DNA of 64,000 nucleotides from Chlorops oryzae. Lineage: Eukaryota > Arthropoda > Insecta > Diptera > Chloropidae. Of this stretch, positions 10,558-49,790 are shown one piece after another. The DNA lies in the NCBI GenBank assembly GCA_020466095.1, contig CM035807.1, forward strand, positions 25,448,129 to 25,512,128. Reading direction: 5' to 3'. Both the position numbers and the translations under genes were made by a program. A model generated the notes under the pieces. That model searched no databases. It saw only the letters and a list, made by a program, of their open reading frames with translations, and was not told where the DNA came from. Every line of letters begins with the position of its first letter. Positions within the stretch are counted from its first letter, which is position 1.

Positions 10558-10610
10558 CGAGAGAGAGAGAGAGAGCAGAGAGAGAGAGAGAGCGCGAGAG
10601 AGAGAGAGAG
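10558..10610 (+). repeat. (GA)n microsatellite with short interruptions
   Basis: GA dinucleotides interrupted by GC and CGC, three sub-blocks over about 53 bases. Purine on the + strand; possible GAGA-factor type sequence. Confidence 0.9.
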
Positions 10611-15608: not shown

Positions 15609-15661
15609 CTCTCTCTCTCTCTCTCTCTCTTTCTTCTCTCTCTCTCTCTCTCTCTCTCTCT
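15609..15661 (+). repeat. Pure CT tract, 53 nt
   Basis: An uninterrupted pyrimidine run made of CT repeats with one TTTCTTC interruption, ending about 760 bases upstream of the first secure heph exon. If this region is transcribed as upstream intron, the RNA would carry CUCUCU motifs close to the exon. Confidence 0.9.
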
Positions 15662-16424: not shown

Positions 16425-16545
16425 CGCGGAAGCGACGAGCTTTTAAGTCAAGCAGCAATTATGGCGCCCGCATCCGACAACAATAATCAGGATCTTGCCA
16501 CAAAGAAAGCCAAATTGGAAACAAACGCCGTACTTGGCGGTGTTG
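16425..16545 (+). CDS. heph: heph exon: N-terminal RGSDELL block
   Basis: This 121-nt exon begins after a TTTTTAG acceptor and ends at a GTAAG donor (16546). Read in phase 0 it gives RGSDELLSQAAIMAPASDNN, continues through a short basic KKAKLE patch and ends in LGGV plus one base. RGSDEL is the conserved sequence found near the N-terminus of animal PTBs (KRGSDELF in vertebrates), and the KKAKLE patch fits the bipartite nuclear localisation region known for that end of the protein. A methionine codon at 16461 lies inside the exon and could serve as a start in shorter isoforms. I prefer to treat the exon as internal, because the conserved residues before that ATG are in frame and preceded by a good acceptor. 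The upstream exon supplying the true start is not secure. Confidence 0.92.
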
Positions 16546-16695
16546 GTAAGTTGCAAAAGAAATTAAATCATTTACTTAAATATATAACGATTTCTAATAA
16601 CCTCAGCACGCTAAACTAGTGCAGAAAATCAAGGAGCATTTATGGTCTTCACTTGAGAGGAATAAAAATTCATTTTCAAAATAAAAGGATAAGTT

Positions 16696-16806
16696 TTTCT
16701 TCCCTTAGGGGCGGGCTCAAAAGCAATCGGCCGTCGAAACAGTCGAAGCAATAACAGAAACACTTCAAAAAATTTCTGATTCATTTCTTCCCTTAGGGGC
16801 GGGCTC
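16696..16806 (+). repeat. Mosaic insertion bounded by a 23-bp direct repeat
   Basis: A 23-bp segment (TTTCTTCCCTTAGGGGCGGG then CTC) occurs at 16696-16718 and again at 16784-16806. Between them, 16719-16768 matches 18281-18330 at 48 of 50 bases, and 16772-16788 is identical to 16861-16877. The block therefore consists of copies of three local sequences placed end to end. This pattern is known from templated end-joining repair of double-strand breaks, for instance after transposon excision; an assembly artefact is the alternative. Confidence 0.8.
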
Positions 16807-16903
16807 TCTCCAGTTCTGTCAGAAATTAAACAGAAAAAAAAACACTACATATACACATAGATTTCTGATTCATTTCTGAAGCGTTTTTTTTATACATATG
16901 ACT

Positions 16904-17142
16904 AGAGCGTGTATTTTTAAGCATTTATAAATTTGAAGCATACTTTGTGGGGGGGATATTTTTTTTCTTATCACCATTTTGGAAATAAGTAGCGAATTTG
17001 AACTTCAAGGGGATTTCCTAGCTTTGAAAAAGTCTTAAATAGGCTAAAAATCGATTTGAATCTTAACTTTATGTAAATTGAACAAATTTTTTGCCCCATA
17101 AAGTACGCTTCAATTTTATAAATGCTTAAAAATACACGCTCT
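16904..17142. repeat. Inverted-repeat element with arms of about 49 bp (MITE-like)
   Basis: The left arm starts AGAGCGTGTATTTTTAAGCA at 16904. The right arm, 17094-17142, is its reverse complement with only a few differences. The 17150-17215 flank shares a run (CTTTAAACGTGAAAAGAT and following) with 38411-38460, so the region belongs to dispersed repeat material. No transposase is present. Confidence 0.7.
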
Positions 17143-20100
17143 ACATATGACAGAGCTAAAGATAGCCCTTTAAACGTGAAAAGATCGAGAAAGCGGAAAA
17201 ATGCAAAATTTTTCATACAAAACTTCGTTCATTAATTTTTAAGCCTTCTTGATTTGCCAGTTTTAGAAATTTTCGAGGCAAAAACACGTTTAAGAGAAGA
17301 CCCGTCACCCAGTATTTTTCTTTCGTTCGCGACCACATTTTCCAACATTTTCCGTTTAAGTTTCTCTGTAATTAGATAGTATGGTATGTGGTAGCTTTAC
17401 ATGTGGTGCAGAAGCTTAGTTAGAAATTTCCATAAAGAAACTGTTAAATAAAAGCGCTAGCGATCGCGATCCCATTAATGAAATTGGTTTCAAGTTTCCT
17501 AGGACTTGCTGCAAAATAAAATCGGGAATGTCACTGCTTTGCCATTCTCACATGCAGCTTGCATAACCCAACCAATCCTAATAATTGTAAGACTTACATC
17601 GGCCGGTTGAACACTAGAAACTCTGGCACTGTATGACGACAGAGCAATATTATTAGAAGAAAAGAAGTGTACCCCATTTCATTTGATACCAGTAAGGAAA
17701 TGATTCAATCAATCCTCGCCCATTTCCATTTTTTTATGTTTTTATATAATTTTTTTTTTAATACTGTCAACCACCAAAACTCAAAATGGCGTTCGCTCGT
17801 TGTTTCCTTTACCAACAAACCGCTTAATCATTTACGTAATTAAGTAAAAGCCACGAAAATATTCCCTCTAAGCCACAAAAATAAACAAAAACAAATCAAC
17901 ACCATTTTCAGTCCTACATTAATGAACGAACTTGCCGGTCTGTTAATTTGCCTCATCGCCGCAATAATGTAAGGGAACGCGCATCGGTAAGGCAACATAA
18001 CGCAACTCCCATCATTCATTTATAAAATACATACGTAGGCATTGATTTGGTGAACACAAATCAGTTTCATTGAAATAACTTCGACTAATTTCGTTTCGAG
18101 GGCTGAATGCCAACCACCGCCATCACCACCACGGCCACTCTCGCGGCGTATAAACATATTTTTTTGTCAATCAAAATTCGAAAATCGAAAGCCATTGTAT
18201 GTGTGCATATTGTTGCGGTTTTGGTGGGCTTATGATTTTCCAAAAAGCATAAACTCGCGCTTATCGCCACATTGAGCCACAAAAGCAATCGGCCGTCGAA
18301 ACAGTCGAAGCAATAACAGAAAAATTTCAATGCTCGCACGTAAAGTAAACAAATCAAAAGGTCATACTTCACTGTGCTGTTCTGTGCTGTGCTATGCTTC
18401 CGTCGATTCTTCAAAAAGCAATGATTTCGATTAAGAACAATTATGCAAAATATGCCGAAAAATATGCAGTAAAATTTGTTAATTAGACAATCGAACCATA
18501 AAAGGCATAGAAATTCCTTTATGAAATATTTCGAGATGATGAAATGAAAACACGTTTATGCATTGCTTATTAATTTTTGCTATGAAATTTCTGGCTTTAT
18601 ATTTCTTTTAAAAATTCTCATACAAAAATTCAAGCAGCCATAATACACATGCCGAACATCTGGCACTGAAATCAGCTTCCATTGTATGTATGTGTGTGTG
18701 TGTGAGTTTCCTTGTTGCAACATATCCGGCAAGTCATTTAATATATGCCGAAACTTCGGTTCCTGTAAAATAATGAACAACTTTATCCTGGTCATCGATA
18801 TAATGAGCATACTTTCAGTATTCACAGCATACGGAGCAGCCAGCCACTGTGTGTGTTGTGCGGTGGTCGAATCGTCCGATTTAATACCAATACCAAGAAA
18901 AACTTCCGATGCCACGAGACAATGAACGTACGCTCGACTTAAATACACACAGACACGCTGATAACGACGACAATAATGATAGTGATAATGATGACAAAAA
19001 AATAAAAATAAAATGGCTGGAAAAGAGAAAAAGGTTATGAAAGCGAACAATCAGCTCTTCCAGCGGCGAAAGGTCGACGTGCCGTTTATTATTATGGAAT
19101 GCTATTGTTTTCGGGCAATCTATCTGATAGCTTTATTGAAAGCATATTGGGTAAATATCTTTGTGAAGAGAGCAAAGGCGGCGGCGGCGGGAGCGCGAAT
19201 ATGTTAAATTTTGAGCCGGCATCGAAATTTTTAATTAGTATCCAATTAATAAAATACCGCTGAGCCTGAAAAATAAAGCAGAATGGAATTTCGGTTTTGG
19301 GTGGAAAATTTCATTCGGAAAGCTTTTTCTGGTTAACGCTCTGTCGGAAATGAAAATCTTCAGAACTTTTCTGATTTCACAATATTGAATCGGTGGGATT
19401 AAAAACATTCAATTAAAATTAATTTTTTACTGCTTTCCGGATGACAAGAATAGCACATTTCAGGCCGTCAAATCTGCCTTTAAGCATATATCCTAGTAAT
19501 TACCATTTGGAAATTTTCCTAATTGAAATTATTCCTAACTAAATGCAAGAACGTTTCATCATAACCACCGTTCTTGCATATACATACAAACATACCTAGA
19601 TTACTCATACTTACGTCTCGATATGTTGAAAGGTGAACAAAGTCAAGCCAAAGTATGCCAACCGCTGCCGCCGCCGCCGCCACTTTACTGCCAATTTTCA
19701 TTAACGAAATGAAAACGGATGTCAGCCCAAATTGATTTACCGATGTTGAACGCCAACACTTTCATATACCCTTCACACGCACACACACCCATTTTATCCA
19801 CATCGATACCAAAAGCCACTCATACATTCCTAGAAACCATCTCAGCGTACCAACTTCGTTCGCAAGGACTTCTGCGTTATTTCCTTTCCTTGCGCTCTGA
19901 GTAAGGTAATTTCTATGCACATTGATCGATACAAAAATCGAAAAAAAATTCTATTTTTTTTCAAAAATAATTTTTATTGCTAGCAAACGACTGCTGTGGG
20001 TACATACATACATATAAATGTGTATGTATGTGTGTGTGTAGTACGTTGCGTACCTGTAAGCACTTTTACTCCTTTCGTTACATCCAATTGCCTCGCTTGC

Positions 20101-20789
20101 TCTTTACATACGAATATTTGAATAGAAATTGTGTGCGCGCTGCTTCAGTGTTTTTGCAACCGCATAGCATAATATTTATTTATTACTTCACAAAGGACTT
20201 TTTCTATTAATTAAAAAGCAACAGACTCGCTTTTGGCTTTATATGCTGCAGCAGACGACAGTATACCAGCTGTGACTTGGTCGGGTTTTTTCTTATCATT
20301 TTTTGAGATCGTTTTGGTGTGGCTCGCACTGGAAGCTTTAAGAGGAGATTCTGCTATTATATTCAAATTGAAAGCATACAAGTGTGAAATAATTTATAAA
20401 GGACTAAAAATTTGTTTTTCTTGTACGACAAAAGTCATTTAAATACGAAGTATTTAGTAATGAACCCTTACTAATGAACATGGATGGTCCATTAATAAGG
20501 GCCAAAAAAAAAAACTTCGTGAACAAATGTCGTTAGTGTCCAAATTAATGCCTCTGTATATGAAATCAAGTCTCCGGGTAACTCAAAATCGGTATCGCAT
20601 AGACACACAGGCGACCTTGAGGAATATTATGATTATGACTTTGAAAAAAAAAATACGCCATAAAAGTTACGAAAATTTCCTTAAGAACGATGAAAAAATC
20701 TAAATTAATGAAACTTGAAAATGTTTTTCAAACCTTTCCTTGACTGATGCCAAAAAAATTATTTCAAATAATTTTTTCTTTTCCGAAGG

Positions 20790-20946
20790 AAAGGGTATAT
20801 TAAGTTTGGCACGGTGTATGTAACATACCAAAGGATGCGGTAGATATAGACTTATATATTTATTCTTGATCAGGGTGATCAAAGAATATCTAGCCATGTC
20901 TGTCGTCTGTCTGTCTCGTCTGTCTGTTTGTCTGTCTGTCTATCTA

Positions 20947-20977
<31 letters not shown>

Positions 20978-21345
20978 GGTCACATTTAGTTTTTCGTAAT
21001 TTACTCCTAAGCCATGAAAGATATCATATTGAAATTTGGCATGGACTTCAACCAGGTAAATGTCCAAAAACTGCATACAAATTTTTTTCGTAGTCCCTTC
21101 TTGGGTCGTGGGAAGTGCTTCAGAAGTTTCAAAAATCACGATTTTTAACGTTTTTCCTGGAAACTTTTTTACTATACATCCCAGCTTATTGAAATTTGGT
21201 GTGTGTATAGCTACTATGTAGACTTAAGCTTTCGCTGAAAAAAAAATTGCGACATCGCTATAACTATGGTCATCATCCTACACAATAGAAAAAAACTACT
21301 CTTTCTCTTATTCTCATATCTGAATACAAAAATTAATTTTTTTCT
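20790..21345 (+). mobile_element. Dispersed transposon-like repeat with internal (TCTG)n tract
   Basis: Sequence such as TTTGGCACGGTGTATGTAAC, then ATTCTTGATCAGGGTGATCA, then AGCCATGTCTGTCGTCTGTC followed by a TCTG microsatellite (about 20897-20979), is the organisation of a family common in fly genomes. It runs directly into the satellite that follows. No coding capacity is visible. I cannot name the family with certainty; a Helitron-like non-autonomous element is one possibility because such elements often combine a microsatellite and tandem repeats. Confidence 0.5.
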
Positions 21346-21349
21346 TCAT

Positions 21350-22035
21350 CTGATTGTGTATTTTGCCGCCAAATAAAGTCGTCCATTATGGATAAATTTT
21401 GACCATGACCACATTTCGCGAAATTCGCAAAAATTGATTTTCACTATTTTGAATTGAGTATTTCGCAGCTAAACAAAATGTCCTCTAAGGGTTAAAATTT
21501 GATCAAGACCACCATCCGCGAAATTCGCGAAAATTTGATTTTCACTATTTTGAAGTGAGTATTTCGCAGCTAAACTAAATTTCCTCTAAGGGTTAAAATT
21601 TGATCAAGACCACCATCCGCGAAATTCGCGAAATTTGATTTTCATAGTTTGAATTGAGTATTTCGCAGTTAAACAAAATGTCCTCTAAGGGTTAAAATTT
21701 GATCAAGACCACCATCCGCGAAATTCGCGAAAACCTGATTTTCACTATTTTGAATTGAGTATTTCACAGCTAAACAAAATGTCCTTAAGGGTTGAATATT
21801 TGATCAAGACCACCATCCGCGAAATTCGCGAAAATTTGATTTTCACTATTTTGAAGTGAGTATTTCGCAGCTAAACTAAATTTCCTCTAAGGGTTAAAAT
21901 GTGATCAAACCACCATTCCGCGAAATTCGCGAAAATTTGATTTTCAACTATTTATGAATTGAGTATTTCGCAGCTAGACATATTGTCCTCGGTAACGGTT
22001 AAAATTTGACCATGACCACCATTCGCGAAATTTTT
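21350..22035 (+). repeat. Tandem satellite, unit about 101 bp, six to seven copies
   Basis: The same unit recurs with the TTTTCAC(T)ATTTTGAA landmark at 21441, 21542, 21642, 21742, 21843 and 21944, a period of 100-101 bases. Each unit carries GTATTTCGCAGCTAAACAAA, then CCTCTAAGGGTTAAAATTTG, then a 13-base dyad CGCGAA-A-TTCGCG. The first and last copies are more diverged, as expected at array edges. Confidence 0.93.
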
Positions 22036-24123
22036 TTGACTTAATAATAATCTCGAGTTTTAGAACCTAAATCGAAGTACAGATAAGGTATAAATAGATT
22101 CCAAGCTAGAACAACGAAAACGGCAGGAATTTTCGAATTAAGGTAATGTTTTAAACATATTTTAGGCTGAGGAAAAGGTGTGTGCAATCGGCTTTGCCGA
22201 TGTAAATTTTTACTTTGTTTCTATATAACATTGTAAACCATAAAACATCTTTCAGAAGAATGAGCTTGGTTTAAAGGCATTTTTCGCTATTTTTCGTTCA
22301 TTTTTTTAGAGCATTATTCACGACATTTTCTTAAGACAGTTAGAGGTGCAAATAAGTTTGTTTGTTGCTCAATTAAGAAGAAAGGTCCTGTGCTTATTTC
22401 AAAACTGATTGGAAAGAAATCATTTTAGTTCATTTTCTTCCGCGCACGAAACATAAGCCAGAATCCAACTTTGAGAATCCCTCAACTAGGTTAAAGCTTC
22501 TTTAGTGGAGACAGACATTAGACAATGAAACGAGTTACAGTAGATCTCAAGTAATATGTCACTTCTCTCAATTGGTAGCCGAACTTGGAGACGAAAAAAA
22601 AACATTCGAAAGCTTAAGAACATAAAACAAGAGAGCCACATCTTTCTCCAATCTAACTTTATGTATTTTTTCTTGGTGTTTGACTTTCGAAAAATGTAAA
22701 AAAAAAAAAAAAAAACATAAACCGAAACGATGTCCTTGGCACTTTCCCAAAACTATAAAAAGCCATAAGCACGAAGTTATAACAGCAAACATCAATAAAT
22801 ACTGAAGTGACAACTGAAAAGAGTCGGCGACATGTCGCTTGCGATCCAAGTTAAGTGGATATTGCACGGACGTGAAGAAAATTTTTGAAAGTTTTTTGCG
22901 ATGAGGTCTTGTCGTGCGACAAAGGACTATCCGATCCGATCGGTCATTCATTTAGGGTTACAACAATTTTTTCTTATTTATTCCTGAGAACAATTGAAAT
23001 AACCAAATTGAAAAATTCCTTGACATTCCAAGAGGAAACTAAATTTAGCTACGAAAAAGAGATCAAATAAAAAAGAAGCATAATACTTACATATAAAGAA
23101 TACAATACGCATACAATGACAAAAGAAGGCCACAATAAAACATCACACGGCAAGCAATGAAATTCACGTAAATGTAATAAAAACGTTTCGCCATATATTG
23201 GTGGGTGATAAATACTCAAAACGAATGGGCGCGGACGAAGGAGGAAGGATGGTGGTGATGACAATGGTGATAGCGGCGGCGGTGCTTGCTGTAGCTTTTG
23301 TACTCTCTTCAACATATGTTGTGGCCGCTATGTCCTGCATATCCTCGATTCATGTGCTCCGGTTTTTTTTTCCCGTTCTTTTACTATTGCTTTTTTCTTG
23401 TGTTTGAACGTATTGTATGCATAGTACTTGTATTTGTTTGTTTATTGGCCGATTTTTGGTTTAATGGTCATGTTCGGCACGTTCGTGTGCGATCATGTAT
23501 CGTTGGAGGAATGAAAAAGCAAGTCAGACAAAAAATTTGTATGCTTGTTTCTTACTTGTTATTGTTGGGTGTAGTGTGAGGGGTTTTTTCGTTTTTTGTT
23601 CTCTCTCTCCTAGTGTCCTCTTTTCTATTAGAGCCGTTACTGTCGCATAGCTAAACAAAGCTAAGCCAGTACACAGCAGACTAGTGTGCTGATTCGGGAG
23701 GGGATCTTTTTTTTTTTTTTTTTTTTGTTCAACAATATCTTTTCACGTTTGTTACAATTGAAATAACATATCAGTCCTGCTGCTGTTGTCAAGCTTTTCC
23801 TTCTCTATTTGTGTGTGTTGGATTGGAGCTTTGTTATTTAGAGTGTGCTTGGTTTAGATAAAACGGTTACTCCAGTGGACGTTTGGAATTTAAAACTATT
23901 TTTCGTTGAACAGAAATTGCACTGTTGTTGTTGTTGTTGATGGTGGTGCTTCGAAGAGACTCCGATTACAATCGAAAATATCGAATTGAGGATTTTTGAT
24001 TCCCAGCAAATTGATTTTGTGAAGTGTGAAGAATTAAAGCTGATAGTTTTATTCGTTTATAACGACTGAAAGGGCGAACTGCAAGCCATCGGCATGGACT
24101 AGTCCTTGGCTTCTGAAAATAGA

Positions 24124-24595
24124 CCTCTCTCTTTCTCTCTCTCTCTCTCTCTCTTCTTTCTCTCTCTCTCTTTCTCTCTCTCTCTTTCTCTCTCTCTCTT
24201 TTCTCTCTTTTCTCTCTTCTCTCTTTTTTTCTCTCTCTCTCTTTTTCTCTCTCTCTCTCTTTTTCTCTCTCTCTCTCTTTTTCTCTCTCTCTCTTTTTTT
24301 CTCTCTCTTTTTCTCTCTCTTTTTTCTCTCTCTCTCTCTTTTTCTCTCTCTCTCTCTCTTTTTCTCTCTCTCTCTCTTTTTTCTTCTCTCTCTCTTTTTC
24401 TCTCTCTCTCTCTTTTTCTCTCTCTCTCTCTCTTTTCTCTTTTTCTCTCTCTCTCTTTTTCTCTCTCTCTCTCTTTTTTCTCTCTCTCTCTTTCTCTCTC
24501 TTTTCTCTCTCTCTCTCTCTCTCTTTCTTTTTCTCTCTTCTCTCTTTTCTCTCTCTCTCTCTCTTTCTCTCTCTTTTCTCTCTCTCTCTCTCTTT

Positions 24596-24632
<37 letters not shown>

Positions 24633-24853
24633 TTCTCTCTCTTCTCTCTTTCTCTCTCTCTCTCTTTCTCTCTTTCTCTCTCTCTTCTCTCTCTTTCTTC
24701 TCTCTCTTCTTTCTCTCTCTTTCTCTCTCTTCTTTCTCTTTCTTCTCTCTCTTTCTCTTCTTTCTCTCTCCTTCTCTTTCTCTCTCTTCTCTTTCTTTTC
24801 TCTTCTTCTTTCTCTCTTCTCTTTCTTTCTCATTCTCTCTCACTCTCTCTCCT
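24124..24853 (+). repeat. Giant CT-rich (polypyrimidine) array in heph intron
   Basis: From 24124 to 24831 there is not one purine: 708 consecutive C or T bases, mostly CTCTCT blocks separated by TTT to TTTTTTT. After single A bases at 24832 and 24842 it continues to 24853. The pyrimidine strand is the sense strand of heph, so the pre-mRNA would read CUCUCUUUCUCU for over 700 nt. CUCUCU and UCUU are the preferred sites of PTB, the product of this gene. It lies 6.3 kb upstream of the RRM1 exon. Very long apparent ORFs here on both strands are low-complexity artefacts. Confidence 0.97.
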
Positions 24854-26927
24854 CAATTATTAGTGAGCATTCCATTTAAATATTAGACTTCCATATAACA
24901 TAGTGGGCACCTTTCTCTTCAGGGTACGAGAGTAATTCAGGCAATCCCGATTGCTAATCGACGCATAATGTAAGGCCATAAAACGTTTTCTCTCCTGAAG
25001 ATTACATATTTACGCGTTCTTAAAATTCAATGATTTATCGTTTTCATACCCGTGAATAAAACTTCCGGCCACATTAAAGAGAGTTATTAAATACCAATCA
25101 TATGGTCGATTGCATCAAGAAATTAAAATGTGCTGCAAAACTCAGCGATTTTACTGTCCTCTTAATAGCTCAAACAGACTCCCCAACACCACAATAACTG
25201 TGTTATTGTAACAAGGCGCATGGTATTTAGTACCTCCACCCCACTGTCGCGTGGTCAATGGGAATTATACTTACATTCCGAAGGACTCGATCTCGCGCAC
25301 ACACACACACTCATGCACGAACGCACATGGGAAAATTTAAAATAAAATAAAAAATACTTCCCTGGATTTTCAATTAAGTGATTTTGAGCGAAAATTGCGT
25401 AAATGAAAAATAAATAAATTATTCATATTTAAATTGAAAAGTTAACAAAATGTAATGGAGAGTGGCTACTGAATACATTATGTCATAGCGTGGCGTTGTT
25501 TTTGGTTATGAGAAAGATCATAAGTGAAATTGCCATTATTAAGTTTATTATACATTAATGACCAAAATAATAATAGCGCGATGTACGTGCGACGATAATG
25601 CATACAATATGCTTATTTTTTCATTTTTTTTATTAAGCTTCATTCACAGAAAAGAACAAAACGAAAGGATGAAAAAAGCAGAAAATCGAATTTTATTGAT
25701 AAATGCGAAAGTCCTTGGAGGGAGTTAATTAATGACAATTTAAATTCATAGCACGGAAAAACAATTTTCAAAGTAACAAAAGGCGGGCATTGTTTACAAA
25801 TAAATACACGATTACTACAGCTACAGGCAAATAGTGGTTAACCATGCGTATGTATGTTGTTTCGTATGTGTACATTCGTGCGTTTGTTGTGTGTGTGTGG
25901 TCCTTATTATTGTTGTTCTTTAGTATGGTTGAATTCATTTTTTAATTACTGTTGATTATTAACAATTGAAATTTTCGATTTTTCGGTTCAATGCTTGCCG
26001 GAAAACATCGCCATCCTTTAATTCCTGTAATTGCTGGTGTATAAATTTATAGGAAATTACATAAAATAGGAACTCATTGTTTTCCTATAAAATTATTAGG
26101 CTCAAATAAATTCTAAAGCAAGAGTAGCTAATCGGAAAATTCAGACCGTAAAATTTGTCGTAAATAGACTACGCTATGATTTCACAGTATTTTGATTTGC
26201 GGCATGATTACCTTTTCTTTCTCTGTCTTCATTTTTTTGAGAGGAAGCCATTATCTCTTCAGATACCCTTGGATCTGAGGATTCATCTTTTGATTGGTTG
26301 AGTTAGACAGAGATTGTACAGGATTGGAATAGGTAAAAAATCGGAGAGAAGGAATCCGAAAAGGGTTTGGTTCTCTCAAAAATTTTGCTTCAGGAGTTCA
26401 GTAAGTGGTAGAGAATCGATATATTCCACAATTAAAACGTTTTCTCTCTTCCTCGTGGTACTCTCGCCATCAAACCAACTTTTCGCCGTTGATTTACCGC
26501 CTAATATGAACGGCGATCATGTTGCAAAGCCATTGAAATCCGAATTCGCCGGCGTTACAGAATACTACCGATGCTATGCTGTTATCGATTTAATAGACGT
26601 TATCAGCATGTCAAAAGGCAGGAAAGTAACACAGGAAGTGCTCTGTATTGTCCTCGTCCTCAAGGTATGAAATGTATCTAGGGCAGTGGTGTTCACGCCA
26701 TACATCATTTGATGGCGCTCATTTCACACGTATTGCTTACGCTCTTTGTTCAGTCGGTAGCAAACAATTTTTTTTTTAGCGCCGCTGATTTACCAACATC
26801 GCGCGCGTCTGTACAGCTTTTTTGTTTCACTGCACCTAGATGAATTACATGCTAAATTTTTTGAGCGAACTCGCCTAAAACGTGGACATTCACCCACACA
26901 GTCTCAGGGCTAATTTTGAACGGCCAC

Positions 26928-27101
26928 ATCCATAATAGTGTGCACTGCTATGTGAGCAGCCAATTTGATCGCTGACCGAAACGTCGAGAGATTCAACACC
27001 GAATGCTAGTTAGATAGACAACACGATCCATAATAGTGGCATGTTGTGAAACCATTTGATCGCTGACCGACCTCGAGAGATCTCCGAATGCTGTTAATAG
27101 A
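26928..27101 (+). repeat. Diverged direct duplication, period about 98 bp
   Basis: Two successive units start ATCCATAATAGTG at 26928 and 27026 and share TTTGATCGCTGACCGA, CGAGAGAT and CCGAATGCT landmarks in the same order, with small indels. The sequence before it, starting GGCAGTGGTGTTCACGCC near 26692, looks like transposon terminal sequence, but I could not define a clean element. Confidence 0.7.
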
Positions 27102-30100
27102 CAAATTTAAATAATAAAATACGGATTGGACCCAATCTTTATTCCATAATTTCGTTTGGAACAGCTCAATTCATTTCCGGTGTAAATTCCAACGGTGTAT
27201 GTATGGGCTTCTTGACTGTTATTCCAACGTACCACTGCATTTTTCGCTCTCCTCAAAATTTAAAATAAGTAAATAAGTAAACTTTCCAAAACTTCTCAAT
27301 GTTGATTTTTCTTTTTGAACTTTTACGACTTTTAAAATTTCCACAATCATCTTTACTCAGTCACGCACAAGTTCATTTAAATACAAAAAAAAAAAAAATA
27401 ATTTTCCACTCAATTTGCTTAAATGTTCGCCCTCGATTTTCTCTCTTCTTATTTTTTTTAAATTCATTTTTTTTTAAAAGATTCTTTGCGAGCGTGTTAC
27501 TCACAATTTCAGGCCCTCGAGAAATGTAATTCATTAAATATTTTTCCTGCAGCTAGTCTAGCTTTGGTTGATTTCCTCATTTTTTCCCCCGACTTTCTCA
27601 TTTTGTGGGGATATTTCCTCTAGGCAAACATCACTCTCAGCATTGCTATTTCCGCTATTTCAACGCCCGCCCGCATGCTCTTCCGACATCCTCCACCGAA
27701 ATGCGAAAGATGGCGTTACAGTTTTAATTGCATTTCAATTACGAAAAGTAGTTTCTCCTTTTCGAGTTGAATGAAGCGAGCACGAACATCGAAGTCGGAG
27801 TCGAAGGCAGAGTCAGTCTTGTTCTTCGTCTTTCTGTGGGAGATTTATTTTCTTTTTTTTAGTTTAATTTGACTTTCGAACATTTTCAATTTGACATTAC
27901 TTTCAATATATGATGATGATCGTCAATGTGATAAGGCGCTTGTTTCGTCAGCTTTTTTTCATTCACACGCGACTACGAAAATTGGCTTTAGTTTTTCAAT
28001 TTCATCGCCGGAAAAACTATCTGAATTTTCGCCAAACGTTCCGCTTTTTCGCGAATCTCTGTATGATGTATTACACCGATTTGGCCAGCAGACAGCTGAG
28101 ATTACTCGTCGTGCTCTCCGACGTGTGGCAGGCTGTGCGTATCGCAGTTTCAATCTTGTTGCCTTCCTGCGTCAGGATGAATTCCATTTGTAATTTTTTT
28201 TTTCTTTTTCTTTGAATTTTCCATTTCACTTCAATTTGGGTAGTTTTTTTTTTTTTTAATACCTGCATACCATGAATTTCCCACTGTATTGAATCCTACA
28301 AATTGTTTTCTTCTGACTGAAAATTGTTTTTCTTTTGCTTTTTTCGCAAACACTCGAAAGCTTCAAATTTTTGGATTTTTGTAGTTTTTGTAAATTTTGC
28401 AACCATTTTTAGGAGAAAATATAAAACCAAAAGTAAAAAAATCTAAAAAAAAAAAAAATCCACCCAAGTACTCTTCAGTTGCACTAAATCTTGACCTGGA
28501 TTTTTTTGTTTTTTCTCCGATTTCCGTGATTCATGTTTTCCTCTCTCGCTCTTGCTCTGGTCGTTTTGTAATTTCGTTTCAACCTTATTTCCTTTTCGAA
28601 CTAATCAAAAAGAGTAATTTCCGATTAGTATTGAATGGGAATGTTTTTTTCCTCGGTGCTTTTACGTATAACTACTTTTGATGCAAAAGAAAAATGGAGC
28701 ACTGGCCGCTTTGTTTAGGGGGCAAAAACCAGGTGGGGGAAAATTTCATGTTATTCTTCTCACCCCAAAGCTCTGCTCGAGTTTCTAAACCCTTCTCTTG
28801 TTAAATCTGAAGAATTCCATATATTGGAGCATTGCGAAGCAAATTACTTAGCCAATCAGCACGAGGGTTATGCTAATAGAAAGAGAAAAAAAGCCACACT
28901 AGACATTGGAAACAAGGAGCAAATCCCAGAGCAAGAGTAGAGTGGTATGTACGACTCATCTGCGCAAAAAGTCTTAATACTGTCCTTGGCAGCTGCTGTA
29001 CATCTGTTGTGGGCTTGTTGTGCGACCAACGTTTACACGGATGTACGGCGGTGTACCTCACATGTGTAAATGCGCCTCCCATAGGCTTAGGTTGAGGGCA
29101 AGCTTTAGCAATTGCAATTCAACAGGAAACCATGTAGAAAGCTTAAATCCCCAATTGTGCAACTTTGGGGAATTTGTAAAACAAATACAAAAACCCATTC
29201 GTGTGCAGGTAAAAGTAAAAGAATAATTGTGTGTATACAAAAAGAAAGAAACAAAAACAGGACAATTGTCGCTATCCGGCAATGCTTTGTGGATAATGGG
29301 CTAGATGTGATGGAAAGGCAGACTTAATCGGGGGAAAAATTCTCGACCGGATATAAGAATTGCATGCTGGCAACTGAGGAGGTACAGATTAGAGTTTGAC
29401 TTGGGTCTGAGCCTTAGAGAGAGGCTTCTATGTGGCACCGATCTAATATGGTTTGACTGACTGCGGCTTGGTTTGAGTTCAGTGCACCAAAAACGACTTC
29501 TAATACAGAATGAATCTGCGTACAGACGCACAAACATCCTGAAACACTACAAAACTGCAAAAAGTGCGCCTATAAATTTGCTGTTGAAAAAAACCCACAC
29601 TACTTCCATGTTTAAAGTGCAACGAAAAGAACGCTAGGCTACCCAAAATAGCGGGTAAAAAATAAACCAAAAACCAAGGAAAGTAGTAACACCCGACGAT
29701 GGTATGTTGTGTTGATTGTGTTGAAAGGCTGTAATGAATTTATTTACTGCAAGTGTAGAAAATAAAACCAAATCAAAGTACACTCAAAAAAAAATGTCTG
29801 CCAAAATGTGTTGTACTAAGAAAATGCAATTGTAAAGGAGAACAGAAAAAAAATGAGAAAAAACCGAGCCAATTTTTAAAGGAATTCGTTTAATATGAGC
29901 GCACACGAGCGTGATTCTTTTGGGTCCATCTCGTGGTCCTTTTTTGTGTGCCCCGGTCGCATTATTTCATCGTCGGAGGAGAATTCCGTTTTCAACGCTT
30001 ACGCTTTATTTTCCGCTGTTTTTAACTCCTTTCAACTCGTTTTATTTTGGGCTTTGCATATTGGAGTCCTTAAAACTCGCTCGCCATGCATGAATGACCG

Positions 30101-31138
30101 GCCGTGGAGCGACGTTAAAACAAAAATCAAAAAACAAAAAAACGAGCGAAAAAAAGGGATATCGGAAGCGGAAACACCGCCATTGTCGTCGTTCTCGAAC
30201 ATCATACAAGAGAGAAGAACACACGCGAGTTTATGAAAAGCTCTTTATGTTTTTATGGATTTATTTAATTTTTTGTTTTTTTATTTCGTTGTTGAATTTT
30301 TTTCCTCTTATTTTTATTTTTTTTTTTATTCTGCATTCGTGGCTTAAGGCTAATTGTGTTCACAGTTACTCACTTTTCATGACATGATGACCTGTGCATT
30401 TTCTGTGCCAGCCTGCGTGCATGTTTATCTTATATAGATTCACATACAGGCAGAATGATATGCACACACACACACACGTGCGCCTACGCGTATGCTATAG
30501 AAAATATATTTTGAAACATTGGCAACGGTTTTTTTTTTTTTTGTTTTTTTGTACACGTTGTGTTTTGTATGGCCACCAGCGCTAACGTGTGTATATACGA
30601 ATTAATTTTTAATCGCTTATACGAGAGAATAAATAAATAGACAAACAATCAATTGTGGCGTTGGTGATGTCCTCGAAAATGTTATAGCCGCGCACCGAAT
30701 TTTCATTAAATTAAAATTTACGTTGTAATCGCCTTTGTAAGCGAAAGAGCGTGAGTTCAATTTCGTGGGTGTGGGTGTTGGGGCTTGGTCTGCATGATGA
30801 TATTGCTTTTATAAAGGTGATCAGAGGATTTGTCCTGTCAAAATGTATGTGTGTGTGTGTGTATGAAAAAGAAAAACCTTTTAATGTTCATTCAGCTTAT
30901 TTTTCGGCAGTCCAAGAGAGAGATCAACTTAAATGAAAACTTTGAGAGCTCTAGACATTTTGAAGCGCATAATTTTATTCAAACGCAATTACTTAACGGA
31001 CCGAAGAACACTTGTGAACTTATAATTAGGCATTTTAAATCTCCCTAATTAATCTATATTCTAACAGAGAATATTAAATGAAAAAGCTACGAAAATTATT
31101 CATAATATTTTTTGTTTTTGCTTTTTTGTTTTTTTCAG

Positions 31139-31407
31139 GTAAACCATCAAAAGTTATTCACTTACGTAACATTCCAAATGAATCTAGCGAGCCAGATGTC
31201 ATTTCATTGGGCGTTCCATTTGGGCGAGTCACCAATGTGCTTGTGCTGAAAGGCAAGAATCAAGCATTTTTAGAAATGGCCGACGAAGTTTCCGCCTCGG
31301 CAATGGTATCCTGTTACACTGTCACACCGCCACAGATGCGCGGTCGTATGGTTTATGTACAGTTTTCAAATCATCGTGAATTGAAAACGGATCAAAATCA
31401 CACTGGC
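31139..31407 (+). CDS. heph: heph exon: RRM1
   Basis: This 269-nt exon starts after a TTTTTTTCAG acceptor and ends at a consensus GTAAGT donor (31408). It completes the split glycine codon left by the 16425-16545 exon and reads GKPSKVIHLRNIPNES onward to HRELKTDQNHTG. It encodes essentially all of RRM1: RNP2 is VIHLRNI near its start, RNP1 is NQAFLEM in the middle (after LVLKGK), and the last strand is GRMVYVQFSNH. RRM1 of PTB binds short pyrimidine motifs and is needed for the compact RNA-looping function. The length is not a multiple of three, so skipping it would shift the frame. Huge sense-strand pyrimidine arrays lie on both sides, 6.3 kb upstream and 1.9 kb downstream. Confidence 0.97.
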
Positions 31408-31601
31408 GTAAGTAATTTGACGTTATATTTTGATGTAATTTGTTGTTTTTGTTGTTGTTGTTTGTCAACAAAAGCAAAACTATGAGGATTAAATGTTGTG
31501 ATAGTTCTGGTGTAAATTTTTGCGAAAGTTTTTATAATTAAGCAGAGAAAAATGAATGTAGTATCTGTTCAAATGGACTGCCAGTTCTAATGGATTAAAC
31601 A

Positions 31602-31672
31602 CAGTCAAACTTCAATATCTCGAACCACCCGCTATCCAAAGAAATAGTTCGAGCTATAGAGACATAGGGAAA
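31602..31672 (+). mobile_element. Truncated pogo-like MITE, left end
   Basis: Begins CAGTCAAACTTCAATATCTC and continues ATCCAAAGAAATAGTTCGAG, the same left-end sequence as the complete copy at 44902-45073. The matching right terminus is missing. CAGTCAAAC-type ends with TA target sites are typical of the pogo/Tigger branch of the Tc1-mariner superfamily. Confidence 0.7.
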
Positions 31673-33303
31673 CCACTTAAGGTGATGTTTTTATATCATG
31701 TGTACACACCATATACTAAAAAAAATTTTTTTTAAAATCCAGTTGTTTAGCGTCAGGTCTGAAATGGTTAAGGTGACCTTACCCCTTACTCTTTACTGGA
31801 TGATATGTTAAATAAATAGAAATTTTTCCTTTAATAACCCTTTACTCCTGATATGACTTGGTTTTTTATATGGGTTCCTAGGCGAAAGAGGGTTCAAAAA
31901 ATCCACTTTTGCCATATCCGAGCTGAAAATAAAAAAAAAATCCAAGAAATTTTATATTAAAAAGACATCGAATCTTTGGCTTTTAGTTACTTCTTGAAAG
32001 TCACCACAATATTCTAACTCTTAAGCTGCCTTAACGTGATACGTAGTCACGATCCCTGCGCTTTACCTCCCTGAATGCTCGGCTTACTTCTCCCCATTAT
32101 GCTTGCACACGACGCACGTGTACTATAGCCAAAGTGATGGATATTCAATGGGAATATAAGGAAATATTCCAAATAAAGGTTAGACGTGTAGTGGCTCAAA
32201 AAGTTCGCAGCAATAACAATAACCCCAAATGCAATAATATAAAGCAACAATAATAGGTTACATTTCACTGATTACCTTTTTCTGCTGCTGCCACTGCCAC
32301 CACCACTACATATGAATACATATTTCGCCTGGCTCCTTTTGTCAATTCGATGTGTAAGAGCTTTAGTCATGACTGTTTGTATAGCTCTACAAATGTACCT
32401 ATGAATGTGCTTCAACGGACACAGATGCAAACAAGAAAGTAAACATATCGCATCGGTATGTTCATTGTATTGTAAAGTAATTCAAAGACTTCCTTCCGAC
32501 GAACACAAATACACGTATTCCATTTGGATTTATTGAAAACATGCACGTGGAAATGGGTTTTCTGCCATTGTTAAAATACTCATACTTACCTTTGCTATTC
32601 CATTCTAATCCCAGTAAAAGCTCGATTTGCTCTTACACCTTTCCAAAAAATAAGAAAAACATACAGAGCTCAGATTTGAGATAGTCTATTAATGTTTACC
32701 TTAACTTTTTGATTTCTTCAAGTCATGCAGCAGAGTCCTCAATCTTTGATTGTGCCTTAGAAAATGTTTCTACAGAAATTTCTTGTATATATAATTTGAA
32801 AGATGACACTCAGAATAGATAGCATGAAATAAATTATTTGATTTGATGGATGAGACCCTTTTTTAGGGATGTCTTTTCCAAGCTAAGGCCAGTAAACAAT
32901 CAAACTGAGAGGCGGGGGTCTACTTTCTCCACTAATTGCTGAAATGTAAAGCTCTGCTACCCTTTAAGGCAAGGCAAATACACCTCATACTATTTCCTCT
33001 TTAACCTTTAACTCTTTAATAAAAGAAGCATACTTCGAAGGGCAACCGTACTCATGCACCCTTGCCGTTAAGCTGCGGTATGTTGCTCTGCTCTGCCACC
33101 AGTTTGCTTTGTTGTCTAGGGAGTGGAGGTATTAAGCCACAACTATTTTCTAGAACGAACTGTAGATGTTCTCCAAAAGTTGAGCAGCGGTTTGTAGAAC
33201 ATTCTTTCGAATAGTTAATGATCATGAATTTTCGGAGATAAAAATTGGCAGTAGTGTACTCTTGAGAACCAGTGAAGGAATTGAATGTAACAGCACAGAG
33301 AGA

Positions 33304-33972
<669 letters not shown>

Positions 33973-35459
33973 CCTCACATTCAAAGCTTTGACTCGAACC
34001 GATGACAATTATTTTCTCGATTGCAGCAAATAAGCAATCATGTCCTTTCATTATTAAATGTTATCAGGCAACAGTAACATAGATCCTATTGTCCATAAAC
34101 TTCTCCAATCTAATAAGGTATTCTATTATTAAATGTCCATAAGACCACATAAGTAAATAGAGCTCCATCGTAGATGTGTGCCTTGCATTACTGCGTCTCA
34201 CAGTGCGCAAATATTGGGATGAGTGAATGTTCATTTGTATGTGTGTGTGTTTGAATTCGATGACATGGTTCTTATTCAACTGTGTAACTGCCAATTAGTT
34301 TGATGATACAAATTACAAGAGGACGAATGCAGCGCGCACGAAGATTTGCATCGGCGCTCGTATCCGATAATTGTGTGAGTGTGCGCTTAATGAACAAGAC
34401 AACATCCTGCGGGTCATATAGAGGACGACATGTTCCTATGTATGTTTATATGTAAGTGTGTGTATGGAAGTGCGTGCGAAAGACATTGTATTTGGAGTAG
34501 TTGTGCTTGATGATGCTTTCAACCTTATTTGCATTTGGCAAACAAATTCGACAAGAATTTAATGTGCAACATTGATGAATGAGAGCAATATGTATATGCA
34601 GCAGTCTGTATTTAGCACTCGAAAATGTAAAGGTGCGAAGTATTAGACTTTTCGTTTTAGCCGCCAAAATAAATTAATCCTAATGGTGCCCATAATTTTC
34701 TCATTCCGTTCCGCTCCACTCCATTCTATGTAAGCGGGGCATCTCGCAGGATTCCAACCCTTTGTATTTTTGTTTTTTTTTTTGTTGCAAATTCAGTCTG
34801 AACAATGCATTACTTCGCTTTTACAGGAGCTTAAAAATTAATTTATCAATATTATGCTAAAACAATCGCACGTCATATTTGATCCCTATGAGTGCCCTAA
34901 GTGGAAGCCAAACACTGCCAACGTTTCCTTCGCATTGTACGCAAAGCAATTCCATTAAGCGTACGAAGAAGCTGCTTCGCATCCTTCGTGGCTCACACAC
35001 ACACACTCAGGCATGCATACATACGCACATGCATACATAAATTCTCCCATTTGTATGAGTTTCATATTTCGAGGTCGTACTCAGTTGCGCATTCAATATG
35101 ATTTGTTTCAAACAATCTTTTTAAGATTTCAAAGTCGATGCGTTCACGAAATATAAAGTGCATAAAAAATTTTGCTTTTCTTTTTGGTGTATTTTTTGAA
35201 AATTAAGCAAACGAAATTTCTCTGAGTATATACGATGTCTGCACTTGCTGTCGCATAACTTGATGAATACCGTCTTGCACAAAAATACAAATATTGCCGA
35301 AAGCGTTCGAGAAAACTACCTTTTGCTTCAGAAATCCTCGCAACTAAATTCATGTGGGCTTTAAGGATTCTCTCTAGCTCTTATGCGCTGCATTGTATCT
35401 TGAGCCTTGGATGTTACTGCTTATTTTCTGTAAAACTAAACTGCCAACATAAATGTCAG

Positions 35460-35461
35460 TT

Positions 35462-35495
<34 letters not shown>

Positions 35496-35512
35496 GTCTT
35501 TCCCTCTCTCCT
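35460..35512 (+). repeat. CT tract, 53 nt, one G interruption
   Basis: CTCTCT repeats with TTCTC and a single G at 35496, pyrimidine in the sense strand of heph. Third CU-type tract in the same intron region. Confidence 0.9.
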
Positions 35513-36070
35513 AGATTTAAGTTCAGCACGAGCAGAGAAAGTACGATAAGAAAACAGTGAAATATCAAAAATGATTTTACCCCTCATTCAAATTTTAAAC
35601 TTGTTTGTGCATGTGTGTGTGTTTGTGCTCAGTCTCTGACTCAGTGTTTTTACCCTTTCGCCTCGTTGGTCGGCTACAATCAGTCACTCTGAGCTTATAC
35701 AGATGATTGCAAAACCCTGTTCTATGAGGGTTAAGTCCCTCAAGGTATGCTTGCGAAAATGTATCAAAGTAACTGAAATACATTTCCGTTTACACACAAG
35801 CACATCTGAGTATGCATGTATGTGTGTGCGTGTGCTTGCCATGTCTACTTCTATGCGTTTCATATGGATGGATTATGTGTTTACTTACGTTTTAGGTACA
35901 TCTTGAACTACAAAGACTTCGTTCGAAATTTCAATGTTTTTTTTTAATAAATCGTAGTCTGAAGAACGAAACTGAAGGATTGGTTCCGCTGTTCGACGAT
36001 AACCATAAGACAATTTACACGCCTAGAGAAATATTTTGATTAATTTAGTTTTAATTTTATTTTTAATATA

Positions 36071-37355
36071 TTAGGTGTAGTAAAAAGAAATCCATTATTT
36101 TTCCAATAGATGGCGTTATTTATCTGCATCTCGCGTTGTATAAGTCGATCGTGTTCCGCTAGGGGGCATTTGAAAGATGACAGTTCCTACTAAAAAAGCT
36201 TTTTTGACACTTTTTGATTGATTGATTCAGTTTTGTTTGAGAGCTTGTCAAAGATGGACATCAGCAAAGAGAAAATTCGCTACATTTTACAGTTTTTCTT
36301 CGATAAGGGAGAAAACGCAAGCCAGGCGGCTGAAAATGTGAATAGCGTTTATGGACCTGATACTGTAACAGCCAATCATGCGCAATTTTGGTTTCGTCGA
36401 TTCCGTTCCGGTAACTTCGATGTCAAGGATGCACCACGCACTGGAAGGCCAATTGTCGAAAATGTCGATAAAATCATGGAAATTATCGAGTCCGACCGTC
36501 ATGTTAGCACTGTTTCGATTGCAAAAGAGCTAAAGATTGCACAAAAAACCGTTTGGAACCATTTGAATAAGGCTGGATACACAAAGAAGCTCGATGTATG
36601 GGTGCCACACGAGTTAACGCAAAAAAACCTCATAGACCGAATTTCCATCTGCGAATCGCTGCTGAACCGCAACAAAATGACCCATTTCTGAAGCGGTTGG
36701 TGACTGGTGATGAAAAGTGGGTCACTTACGACAACGTCAAGCGAAAACGGTCGTGGTCGAAACACGGTGAACCGGCGGAAACGGTGGCCAAGCCAGGATT
36801 GACGGCCAGGAAGGTTTTGCTGTGTGTTTGGTGGGATTGGCAGGGAATTATCTACTATGAGCTGCTCCCATACGGCAAAACTCTTAACTCGGAACTCTAC
36901 TGTGAACAATTGGACCGTCTGAAGGAAGCAATCGCCCATAAGCGGCCAGCTTTGGCCAATAGGAGAGGAATTGTGTTCCATCAGGACAACGCCAGGCCAC
37001 ACACATCGATAGTGACTCGCCAGAAGCTCCGGGAGTTTAGTTGGGAGGTTCTTCTGCATCCACCTTATAGTCCGGACCTGGCACCAAGTGATTACTATCT
37101 GTTCCTGTCCATGGCGAACAATTTTGATGGTGAAACATTCGCTTCAAGAGAGGCTTCTGAAATTCGACTGTCTCAATTTATTGCTAATAGGAACGAGGGC
37201 TTCTATGAGAGAGGCATAATGAAATTACCTTTAAAATGGCAACAAGTTATCGAACAAAACGGCGCATATTTGATCTAAATCGGGTCATTCTAACTATCTT
37301 AAATAAAGCCCTCAATTTAATGCAAAAATAATGGATTTCTTTTTACTACACCTAA
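36071..37355 (+). mobile_element. mariner transposon, 1285 bp, with intact 32-bp terminal inverted repeats
   Basis: The ends are perfect 32-bp inverted repeats starting TTAGGTGTAGTAAAAAGAAA (36071-36102 and 37324-37355), flanked by TA on each side, the mariner target duplication. Length, termini, and an internal transposase with WVPHEL and YSPDLAPSDYYLF signatures fit a mariner element (Tc1/mariner superfamily). Perfect end identity indicates recent insertion. It sits in the same orientation as heph within an intron. Confidence 0.96.
36254..37278 (+). pseudogene. mariner transposase, single frameshift
   Basis: Cut-and-paste transposase that would bind the terminal repeats and excise and insert at TA. 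Frame 1 from the ATG at 36254 (MDISKEKIRY) carries the N-terminal helix-turn-helix DNA-binding region and the WVPHELTQKN linker motif, and runs to a stop at 36689-36691. The second frame carries the rest: TGDEKW with the first catalytic Asp (codon 36709), HQDNARPH with the second (36985), and SPDLAPSDYYLF with the third (37090). Exactly 34 residues separate the second and third Asp, which is the mariner DD34D pattern. The two frames meet near 36678, where one base appears to be missing in an AAAAT run. All catalytic residues remain, so the copy is disabled only by the frameshift, unless that is a sequencing error. Confidence 0.95.
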
Positions 37356-37357
37356 TA

Positions 37358-37900
37358 TATACATACATATGTATGTATATTAGGACGTTCCAGACGTGAA
37401 AAAAATTTGGGCATCATTAGAAATTTTTTTTTTATTGAGGTTTAGATAGCGCGCTGATGCGTTTAAGTTGAAATGTAACAATTTTGGTATATAGCCTAAA
37501 TGCAAATTTATATGCAAATAAATGTTTTCGAATCGCTTAAACATATTATGAATCAATTGACCGGTAAAACATCGAACTGTTCCTGGAAAAATCATTAATT
37601 GAAATCAATCTTTGTGTTTTCTGCCTCTAAAAGTATACAGAAAAAGTTGAAAATCTGTCAAATTGGAAATTCTAAATTTACAAAAACTAAGTAAAAATTT
37701 TGTAGCTCTCTTTAAGGCGTTATTTGACGAAAATTCAAATCCTCTGAGCGACCTCTAAACCTCAATTTATTTAAGAAATTTTAAATGATGTCAAAATTTT
37801 TCGATTTACCATATCTTTCGTTTGAGACCCCGCCGTCTTCGAAATTAAAAACTTGTTTTTACGTCTGAAACGCCCTAATATACATACATATGTATGTATA
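37358..37900. mobile_element. MITE with mariner-type ends, flanked by identical 22-bp palindromes
   Basis: Inner ends are TTAGGACGTTCCAGACGT at 37380 and the reverse complement of TTAGGGCGTTTCAGACGT at 37878, preceded and followed by TA. Outside each end lies the same 22-bp perfect palindrome (TATACATACATATGTATG and complement), at 37358-37379 and 37879-37900. Either the palindromes are part of longer terminal repeats or they were duplicated on insertion. No transposase. The mariner element at 36071-37355 ends immediately next to it. Confidence 0.8.
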
Positions 37901-38277
37901 AAAAACTCGCATATCAATGATTCTAGAGCGTGCCTGATAATAAGGAAAAAACTGTACCCGATTTACATAGCTTCAGATATATTTCCTATTTGAGAGCATG
38001 GCCGGTTGCGCCACAATGGATTATTTATATGTATGAGTCTTAAGGTATGAATTAAGCTTTAACCTGATCCGTATTATTCAAGGCCAGTTGTCGTGAAGCA
38101 CGACTTTTTCTTCAAAAAAAGGCTGATTACCTACAAAAGAGGCGATAAGACTGAACAGTCCAATGGTTTCAATTTTTTTTTCTCTATGTAATAATTATTT
38201 TTTGTACTCCCCCCTTAAGTCTTCTCAAACATCAATAGAGATATTGCAGTGGTTTTCTAGTTATAGCTATACACCAT

Positions 38278-38552
38278 TCAGCCCGATTCTAAGTATTCCC
38301 GGGGAATCTTCCCGTGTGGAATTGAAAAACTTCTCTGGTTCTGAGAGAGAACAAAATGCGACCGAGAATTTCGAACATTTTTAAGCTGAGATCATCACAT
38401 TAGGGGTCTTCCCTTAAACGTGAAAAGATAAAAAAAAAATGGAAAAATGTAAAATGTTTCTTAAGTGACGCTTAGAAGACTTCATTTTTCAAGGGAGAAA
38501 AAGTTCTAGGGAAAACATTCCCGAGGAATATTCATTCAGAATAGGGCTGTAT
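38278..38552. mobile_element. Probable MITE with CAGCCC(G/T)ATTCT ends
   Basis: The left end reads CAGCCCGATTCTAAGTATTC and the right end is the reverse complement of CAGCCCTATTCTGAATGAAT, so the two termini are imperfect inverted repeats about 275 bases apart. Related end sequences occur at 47031-47240 and 63755-63775, and internal sequence is shared with 17150-17215. A dispersed non-autonomous family is the simplest reading. Confidence 0.55.
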
Positions 38553-41500: not shown

Positions 41501-41610
41501 CCTGTTTTGATCTAACCTTTTGAAAATAACTTTCTTCTTCTTGCGTTTTAAAATTCCCAGCATAATCCGGGATCTGCCAAATGCGACCAATTCCTCCATT
41601 TTCTCCTATT

Positions 41611-41697
41611 AGATCTGTTCTCGTACTGTACAAAACTCTCCAATTTTTTGAAAACTGGGCAAAATTGGTTAGTTTCGTGCAGTACGGGAACAGACCT
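41611..41697. repeat. Short hairpin, arms about 37 nt
   Basis: The left arm AGATCTGTTCTCGTACTGTA and following pairs with the right arm ending GTACGGGAACAGACCT, with about six mismatches and a loop of roughly 13 bases. It could be a remnant of a small inverted-repeat element. Confidence 0.65.
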
Positions 41698-45304: not shown

Positions 45305-45610
45305 TCTGCGTTGGTGCCAGTCGATTATCGTATACAATCGCCAGTCTCTGGCTCACCACTGCCGATCTGCGGTCCAGTTGCAACAACAAATAGCACTGAT
45401 GGCACATCCACAGCTGTGGCTGTTTTACAAAACAATACGAATGCTATCAATGCAGCAAGTGGCAATTCGCTCGGCGGTCCGAATACAGTGTTACGTGTAA
45501 TTGTTGAATCACTGTTGTATCCGGTGTCATTGGATATACTTCATCAGATATTTCAGCGTTTCGGCAAAGTGCTAAAAATTGTAACATTCACCAAGAACAA
45601 TTCATTCCAG
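45305..45610 (+). CDS. heph: heph exon: RRM1-RRM2 linker and first half of RRM2
   Basis: A 306-nt exon, phase 0 at both ends, with acceptor TTTCAG and donor GTGAGT. It begins [20 protein letters not shown], then a low-complexity linker rich in Thr, Asn and Ala (residues about 20-60), then RRM2: [45 protein letters not shown]2 is LRVIVES. In PTB, RRM2 also carries a surface helix used for Raver-type co-repressor contacts, and the linker gives flexibility. Because its length is a multiple of three, skipping it alone would keep the frame but remove half of RRM2. The linker is the most variable part of PTB between species. Confidence 0.96.
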
Positions 45611-45750: not shown

Positions 45751-46036
45751 GCGCTCATACAATATCCCGACGCACATTCGGCACAACATGCCAAAACCAT
45801 ACTCGATGGCCAGAATATCTATAATGGCTGTTGTACGCTGCGTATCGATAATAGCAAATTGACAGCACTGAATGTCAAATACAATAATGACAAATCGCGT
45901 GATTTTACAAATCCATCATTGCCGCCAGGCGAGCCGGGCGCAGATATAATGCCAACAGCTGGCGGCTTAGTGAATGCAAATGATTTACTATTGATTGCGG
46001 CCAGACAGAGACCATCACTAACAGGTGATAAATTAG
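45751..46036 (+). CDS. heph: heph exon: second half of RRM2 and following linker
   Basis: A 286-nt exon, entering in phase 0 and leaving in phase 1, after only 140 bases of intron. It reads [20 protein letters not shown], then [31 protein letters not shown], then a linker [18 protein letters not shown] ending [11 protein letters not shown]. The RNP1 strand (FQALIQY) is split between this and the previous exon. The [10 protein letters not shown] segment is the conserved fifth strand extension of RRM2. Two donors are usable: GTAACC after TTAG at 46036, and GTGATA after ACAG at 46024. Both leave phase 1, so use of the second would only remove four residues (GDKL region). Confidence 0.95.
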
Positions 46037-46463: not shown

Positions 46464-46657
46464 TTAACGGACTTGGTGCACCTGGTGTCTTACCACCATT
46501 CCCATTGGGCTTAGGAACACCACTGGCCGGAGGATACAGCAGCGGTATACCGAATTTGGGTGCTTTCGCCCTAGCAAACAGCAGTGCTTTGCAAACAGCA
46601 ACACCAGCTCTACGTGGATTTTCCAATGTTTTGCTTGTTTCGAATTTGAATGAAGAG
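46464..46657 (+). CDS. heph: heph exon: Gly/Ala/Leu-rich linker and first strand of RRM3
   Basis: A 194-nt exon, phase 1 in and phase 0 out. The split codon with the previous exon gives valine, then NGLGAPGVLPPFPLGLGTPL, GGYSSG, FALANSSALQTATPALRG, ending FSNVLLVSNLNEE. The last residues are the first strand of RRM3 (RNP2, VLLVSNL). The acceptor CTGCAG-type site (TTTGCAG at 46457-46463) has a poor local pyrimidine tract; the nearest strong one is a 20-base T run about 60 bases upstream. The donor is GTAAAT, weaker than those of the other exons. Skipping would shift the frame. Confidence 0.95.
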
Positions 46658-49756: not shown

Positions 49757-49790
49757 ATGGTCACGCCTGATGCTCTATTTACCCTCTTTG
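49757..49790 (+). CDS. heph: heph 34-nt micro-exon in RRM3
   Basis: The exon lies between CTGTAG and a GTACGT donor at 49791 and is exactly 34 bases: 11 codons MVTPDALFTLF plus one base. It follows NVLLVSNLNEE in phase 0 and forms the first helix of RRM3 (vertebrate PTB has RVTPQSLFILF at this place, encoded by an exon of the same length). Known for vertebrates: skipping this 34-nt exon shifts the frame and yields an mRNA degraded by NMD, through which PTB limits its own level. The exact length, phase and protein position are the same here. The next exon, which should begin by completing a glycine codon and encode VYGDVQRVKI-like sequence, was not found before the end of the window. Confidence 0.94.

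Follow-up and report, generated by a model that had tools for sequence, protein, structure and literature searches.

A purine-free CT array of 708 nt, lying in a predicted intron of the PTB/hephaestus gene, was found to be most probably an ordinary expanded intronic CT microsatellite, which the product of the gene that carries it could bind incidentally; its effect would likely be passive, and any feedback on the gene would be likelier to pass through a separate exon of 34 nt. The window, that is, the whole 64,000-base stretch of DNA analysed here, contains part of this gene on its + strand, with exons on either side of the array. The spliced prediction of 403 residues scored 425.3 bits against the hnRNP-L/PTB/hephaestus model TIGR01649 (cut-off of 287.4), its sequence and RRM layout were those of the PTB/hephaestus family, and its best PDB matches were PTBP1 structures. 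A total of 7,988 proteins were scored; 3,995 of them passed, and the best 120 were listed. Among these 120, the PTB proteins of Glossina, Musca, Haematobia, Stomoxys, Bactrocera and Calliphora were 88-90% identical to the prediction, and the full-coverage Drosophila proteins 80-83%, so that the source is probably a higher fly other than a drosophilid. Furthermore, with three fragments of human PTBP1 as queries, RRM1 was placed at 31147-31392 and RRM2 was located in two pieces (45491-45610 and 45745-45924), while RRM4 falls beyond the window. The six predicted exons and the introns between them were modelled from splice consensus, reading phase and protein homology (Table 1). The placement of the array on the sense strand of a hephaestus intron, put forward in the preliminary description, was thus borne out by the + strand PTB exons on both sides and by the family score, the intron itself being predicted.

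Table 1. Features of the PTB/hephaestus locus and of its CT arrays, with positions in the window
Feature	Positions	Strand	Length	Remarks
Predicted N-terminal coding exon	16425..16545	+	121 nt	RGSDELLS...
Predicted intron containing the 708-nt array	16546..31138	+	14,593 nt	Modelled on protein homology and splice consensus; phase 1 at either end
Purine-free CT/T array	24124..24831	+	708 nt	Sense strand
3' tail of the array	24832..24853	+		CT-rich, two A
Weak candidate pseudoexon	24864..24969	+		Array edge as polypyrimidine tract; chance level (95/500 shuffles)
Predicted RRM1 exon	31139..31407	+	269 nt	Frame shift if skipped
Predicted next intron, after the RRM1 exon	31408-45304	+		
Second (sister) CT-rich array	33305..33962	+	658 nt	45 purines; in intron 31408-45304
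Predicted exon, RRM2 first part	45305..45610	+		
Predicted exon, RRM2 second part	45751..46036	+		
Predicted exon, RRM3 start	46464..46657	+		...SNLNEE
34-nt exon	49757..49790	+	34 nt	MVTPDALFTLF; corresponds to vertebrate PTBP1 exon 11; outside the array

The array was the longest pyrimidine run of the window, with 39% C, 61% T and no purines, followed by a run of 100 nt within the sister array, while in the window shuffled 20 times with dinucleotides preserved the longest runs ranged from 16 to 23 nt. The 708 consecutive pyrimidines initially claimed were therefore exact; the span given for them (24124-24853) was right up to 24831, where the pure run ends, and wrong for the last 22 nt, which include two adenines (730 nt as a whole, with 2 A and 0 G). 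Tandem Repeats Finder reported (CT)n at 24125-24851, with a period of 2, 80% matches and 376.5 copies, and the tandem CT units with slippage-type variants were those of a dinucleotide microsatellite. The array lies 7,578 nt past the predicted start of the intron and 6,307 nt ahead of the RRM1 exon. Its interruptions consisted of 64 T-runs (2-7 nt long) and two CC, with neither CCC nor purines, and the first purines appeared at the 3' edge, where the repeat frays out. Moreover, when the array was divided into six equal segments, the final two contained no complete T-run of 5-7 nt, and TT and TTT dominated there. Such a pattern would be expected if a CT microsatellite had expanded by replication slippage with frayed edges, its T-tract variants being multiplied together with the CT units. 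In line with this, a 24-mer around a T5 variant was present eight times, which points to the copying of variants within the array.

Other origins and structures were also considered. A regular higher-order unit was discarded, as the match at lags of at least 8 (0.634) did not reach the value averaged over 200 shuffles of its units (0.676), and so was a transposon origin, as no repeat pairs longer than 40 nt were found at the flanks in a low-complexity-filtered self-comparison of the window. Among the 25 inverted-repeat pairs listed out of 130, the array had a single neighbour, a stretch of poly-T lying 400 nt upstream. No RNA families or tRNAs scored above threshold in the window, and the search for relatives of the locus gave 17 pattern matches in viral contigs and 121 in genome contigs, none of which was confirmed in either set. 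Regarding other repeats, a tandem array of about six copies of a 101-bp unit was observed at 21353-22032, in the same intron, ~2 kb ahead of the CT array. A mariner-family (Mos1-like) element terminated by inverted repeats was located at 36066-37360; two overlapping frames share its transposase between them, so that this copy looks broken. Finally, a 1-kb AT-rich stretch at 56956-57960 matched its own reverse complement at 82%, resembling a foldback element.

The sister array, too, is CU in the sense orientation and contains 28 G, 17 A and variants such as TGTC and TTCC. Pyrimidine-type and purine interruptions numbered 66 and 0, respectively, in the 708-nt array, compared to 45 and 45 in the sister array (p=5e-14, with copies of a single variant treated as independent, so that the contrast is overstated). 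This difference in purity may be due to a young age, to a mutation process at the locus or to selection. Given the 45 purines in the 658 nt of the sister array, purine freedom is no rule of the locus. As regards orientation, clusters counted from runs of at least 6 units numbered 5 for CT and 2 for GA in the window (p=0.45), which is not a significant bias, and the two large arrays would share their orientation by chance with even odds. The impure sister array and the non-significant orientation bias left without support the role as feedback sensor or condensate seed that had been suggested for the array. Furthermore, a second array of similar size in the window and the CT and GA counts argue for an ordinary microsatellite, while other points count against it: 708 nt is long for a purine-free run, the sister array is impure, both arrays have CU in the sense orientation, and the match at longer lags fell below that of the shuffles. 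Short CT arrays were also present on the + strand at 15609-15661 and 35460-35510, and GA arrays at 3728-3773 and 10559-10610.

CU-rich RNA is preferred by PTB, and the array had the high density of sense-strand PTB motifs that characterizes intronic PTB-binding elements. In particular, CUCUCU appeared 21.89 times per 100 nt in the array vs. 0.05 in the remaining intron, and UCUU 8.90 vs. 0.54 times. With the motif set used for the decoy RNA PNCTR (YUCUYY/YYUCUY), 541 overlapping and 107 non-overlapping matches were found in the 708-nt array, and 335 and 72, respectively, in the sister array. The dozens of PTB-type sites anticipated in the gene's own pre-mRNA were thus present, and these 107 non-overlapping motifs make binding plausible there. 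Composed of C and U only, the array RNA would be free of Watson-Crick self-pairing, and we infer that it is very likely bound by PTB. Once transcribed, this unstructured RNA would be coated by PTB and other pyrimidine binders, and weak splice sites near the array would likely be masked until the intron is removed, a passive and local effect. A selected regulatory role forms no part of this explanation, in which neutrality is assumed by default rather than demonstrated. The proposed masking resembles the silencing of weak splice sites by PTB without a conserved role, as cited in PMC7547044, although the cryptic exon is only a candidate in the present case.

Alternatively, the array might be an RNA-level splicing sensor, where PTB on the nascent transcript would alter nearby splicing and lead to a decayed mRNA, either through the pseudoexon at 24864-24969 or through the RRM1 exon jointly with the sister array. 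This is unlikely, despite the dense PTB motifs and the fact that both CU sense arrays flank the RRM1 exon, whose skipping was computed to shift the partial reading frame and to introduce a stop at its codon 70; looping by PTB between distant intronic tracts is, moreover, a published model (PMC3856098, partial text). However, the arrays are far from that exon (6.3 kb upstream and 1.9 kb downstream), and the PTB gene already has the 34-nt exon, of a known kind. A loose scan of the intron gave six candidate pseudoexons, two of which (24864-24923 and 24864-24969) use the 3' edge of the array and introduce an in-frame stop, but one or more candidates of this kind also arose within 100 nt of the array in 95 of 500 shuffles of the 500 nt downstream, which is chance level. 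A recursive splice site beside the array was discarded as well, the sole pattern match in the window being an ordinary exon end near 45611. It is highly improbable that PTB on both arrays bridges them so that the RRM1 exon is skipped, with frameshift and decay, array length then setting the PTB level; equally improbable, as part of that same reading, is that slippage of the array tunes this level quickly between populations. Altogether, the splicing reading is open but unsupported.

Several known systems share features with the array. As described in PMC7547044, hnRNP L attaches to its own intron immediately 5' of poison exon 6A and promotes the inclusion of that exon; this is also an hnRNP on an intron of its own transcript, but poison exon 6A has an effect, while the exons beside the array are only candidates. 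Multivalent intronic PTB sites that repress the surrounding splicing are likewise known from PTBP1 and MATR3 on LINE-derived sites (PMC6108849, partial text), which in contrast are transposon-derived, mammalian and outside the PTB gene. In Drosophila, Heph-GFP was found on Y-loops A and C, whose introns carry the (AAGAC)n satellite, and kl-5 mRNA granules were not made in heph mutants (PMC6508621, partial text), so that Heph acts on repeat-rich introns, albeit of another kind. There too, fly PTB is on the transcripts of repeat-rich introns and needed for their processing, but those are megabase introns with (AAGAC)n, in other genes and in spermatocytes.

The array might also act as DNA, its opposite strand being a (GA)n repeat where GAGA factor or CLAMP would bind and thereby mark an intronic enhancer or open chromatin, which is quite unlikely. 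According to PMC4945028, long GA repeats are bound by CLAMP better than short ones, and a similar sequence is recognised by GAGA factor; the dinucleotide repeat is the same, on the opposite strand and in flies, but it was studied there for X-chromosome dosage compensation. Moreover, a link between GA-rich binding sites and the polypyrimidine tracts of introns has been described in Drosophila (PMC6417741, partial text). On the other hand, the sense CU orientation would be unnecessary for a role as DNA, and a convincing promoter was absent upstream of the array: the scan of 22500-24124 for an alternative promoter, which was rejected, returned Inr-like motifs at 22946 and 23773 and TATA-like motifs at 22754 and 23092, and lacked any strong 5' splice site.

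That the length of the array or its T-runs are partly an artefact of assembly or sequencing is very unlikely. Assembly errors are common at simple repeats with T-runs, and nearly all the interruptions were an extra T, but the flanks were unique and the variants diverse, 611 out of 1000 20-mers and 967 out of 1000 40-mers being distinct (as converted from fractions).

Last, the intron array as a sponge that titrates the PTB of the whole nucleus is extremely improbable, as spliced introns are usually short-lived and, despite the motifs available per copy, ~190 intron copies would have to be present simultaneously to equal the lower estimate for PNCTR. For this precedent of an STR-rich PTBP1 decoy, a HeLa cell was estimated to contain ~36 copies, each carrying 2,178 overlapping or 565 non-overlapping motifs, which gives a capacity of 7 to 27% of the ~286,000 PTBP1 molecules (PMC6224606, partial text). 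The lower figure amounts to ~20,340 sites, i.e. ~190 introns with 107 sites each, or ~114 with both arrays, in an argument from HeLa numbers and not a test. PNCTR and the array both put many PTBP1 motifs on one RNA through pyrimidine-rich repeats, but the former is a separate RNA of >10 kb made by RNA polymerase I, whereas the latter is 708 nt within an intron. The titration proposed at first is therefore weak. Overall, the PTB gene, the predicted intron, the CU sense orientation and the dozens of motifs stood from the preliminary description, while the sensor and condensate roles gained no support.

Returning to the ordinary microsatellite, the likelier site of feedback by PTB on its gene, if it exists, would be the 34-nt exon ~25 kb downstream of the array, by analogy with vertebrates. 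Its peptide, MVTPDALFTLF, is matched by that encoded by human exon 11. The length and frame of the exon are those of the exon 11 type, since 34 mod 3 = 1 and skipping shifts the frame, and three UCUU motifs were found in the tract directly 5' of it. The regulated exons of vertebrate PTB genes (PTBP1 exon 11 and PTBP2 exon 10) are 34 nt long, and their skipping constitutes PTB autoregulation (PMC1940037, partial text). As in those genes, the pre-mRNA analysed here carries PTB-type sites and an exon of the same length and peptide; however, the vertebrate sites lie around that exon, rather than in a long CT array located 25 kb before it. Among the literature matches listed, none had a title dealing with such an array in an intron of hephaestus or with hephaestus autoregulation in flies, in a coverage that leaves out most subscription papers.

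Among the best 120 of the 3,995 passing relatives, the form including the exon was found in 108, an ending of the skip form in 3 (P0069 Chironomus riparius; P0072, from a contig of 2,043 nt; P0075 Anopheles atroparvus) and neither form in 9. The skip-form proteins read NLNEE or NLNDE, followed by eight residues fitting the shifted reading of the next exon. This fit is specific at all eight positions, for database proteins in which prediction errors are possible. Some of the nine relatives with neither form likely represent intron read-through or a faulty gene model. In addition, a partial protein of Ceratitis capitata (P0078) continues past the 34-nt exon as GTSAQ, which is the start of the intron in the window (49791 onwards), and this match hints at tephritid kinship or at a conserved intron start.

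If the array is a microsatellite only, it represents a further case of a repeat expanding within a long intron of a fly, here in a host gene whose protein favours such RNA. Should the arrays tune the level of PTB, the protein that reads a repeat would be dosed by the length of that repeat. The observation made alongside is perhaps weightier: exon skipping with an early stop seems to occur in Diptera and, if so, the feedback loop would be old, and the switch at the 34-nt exon may be common to flies and vertebrates.
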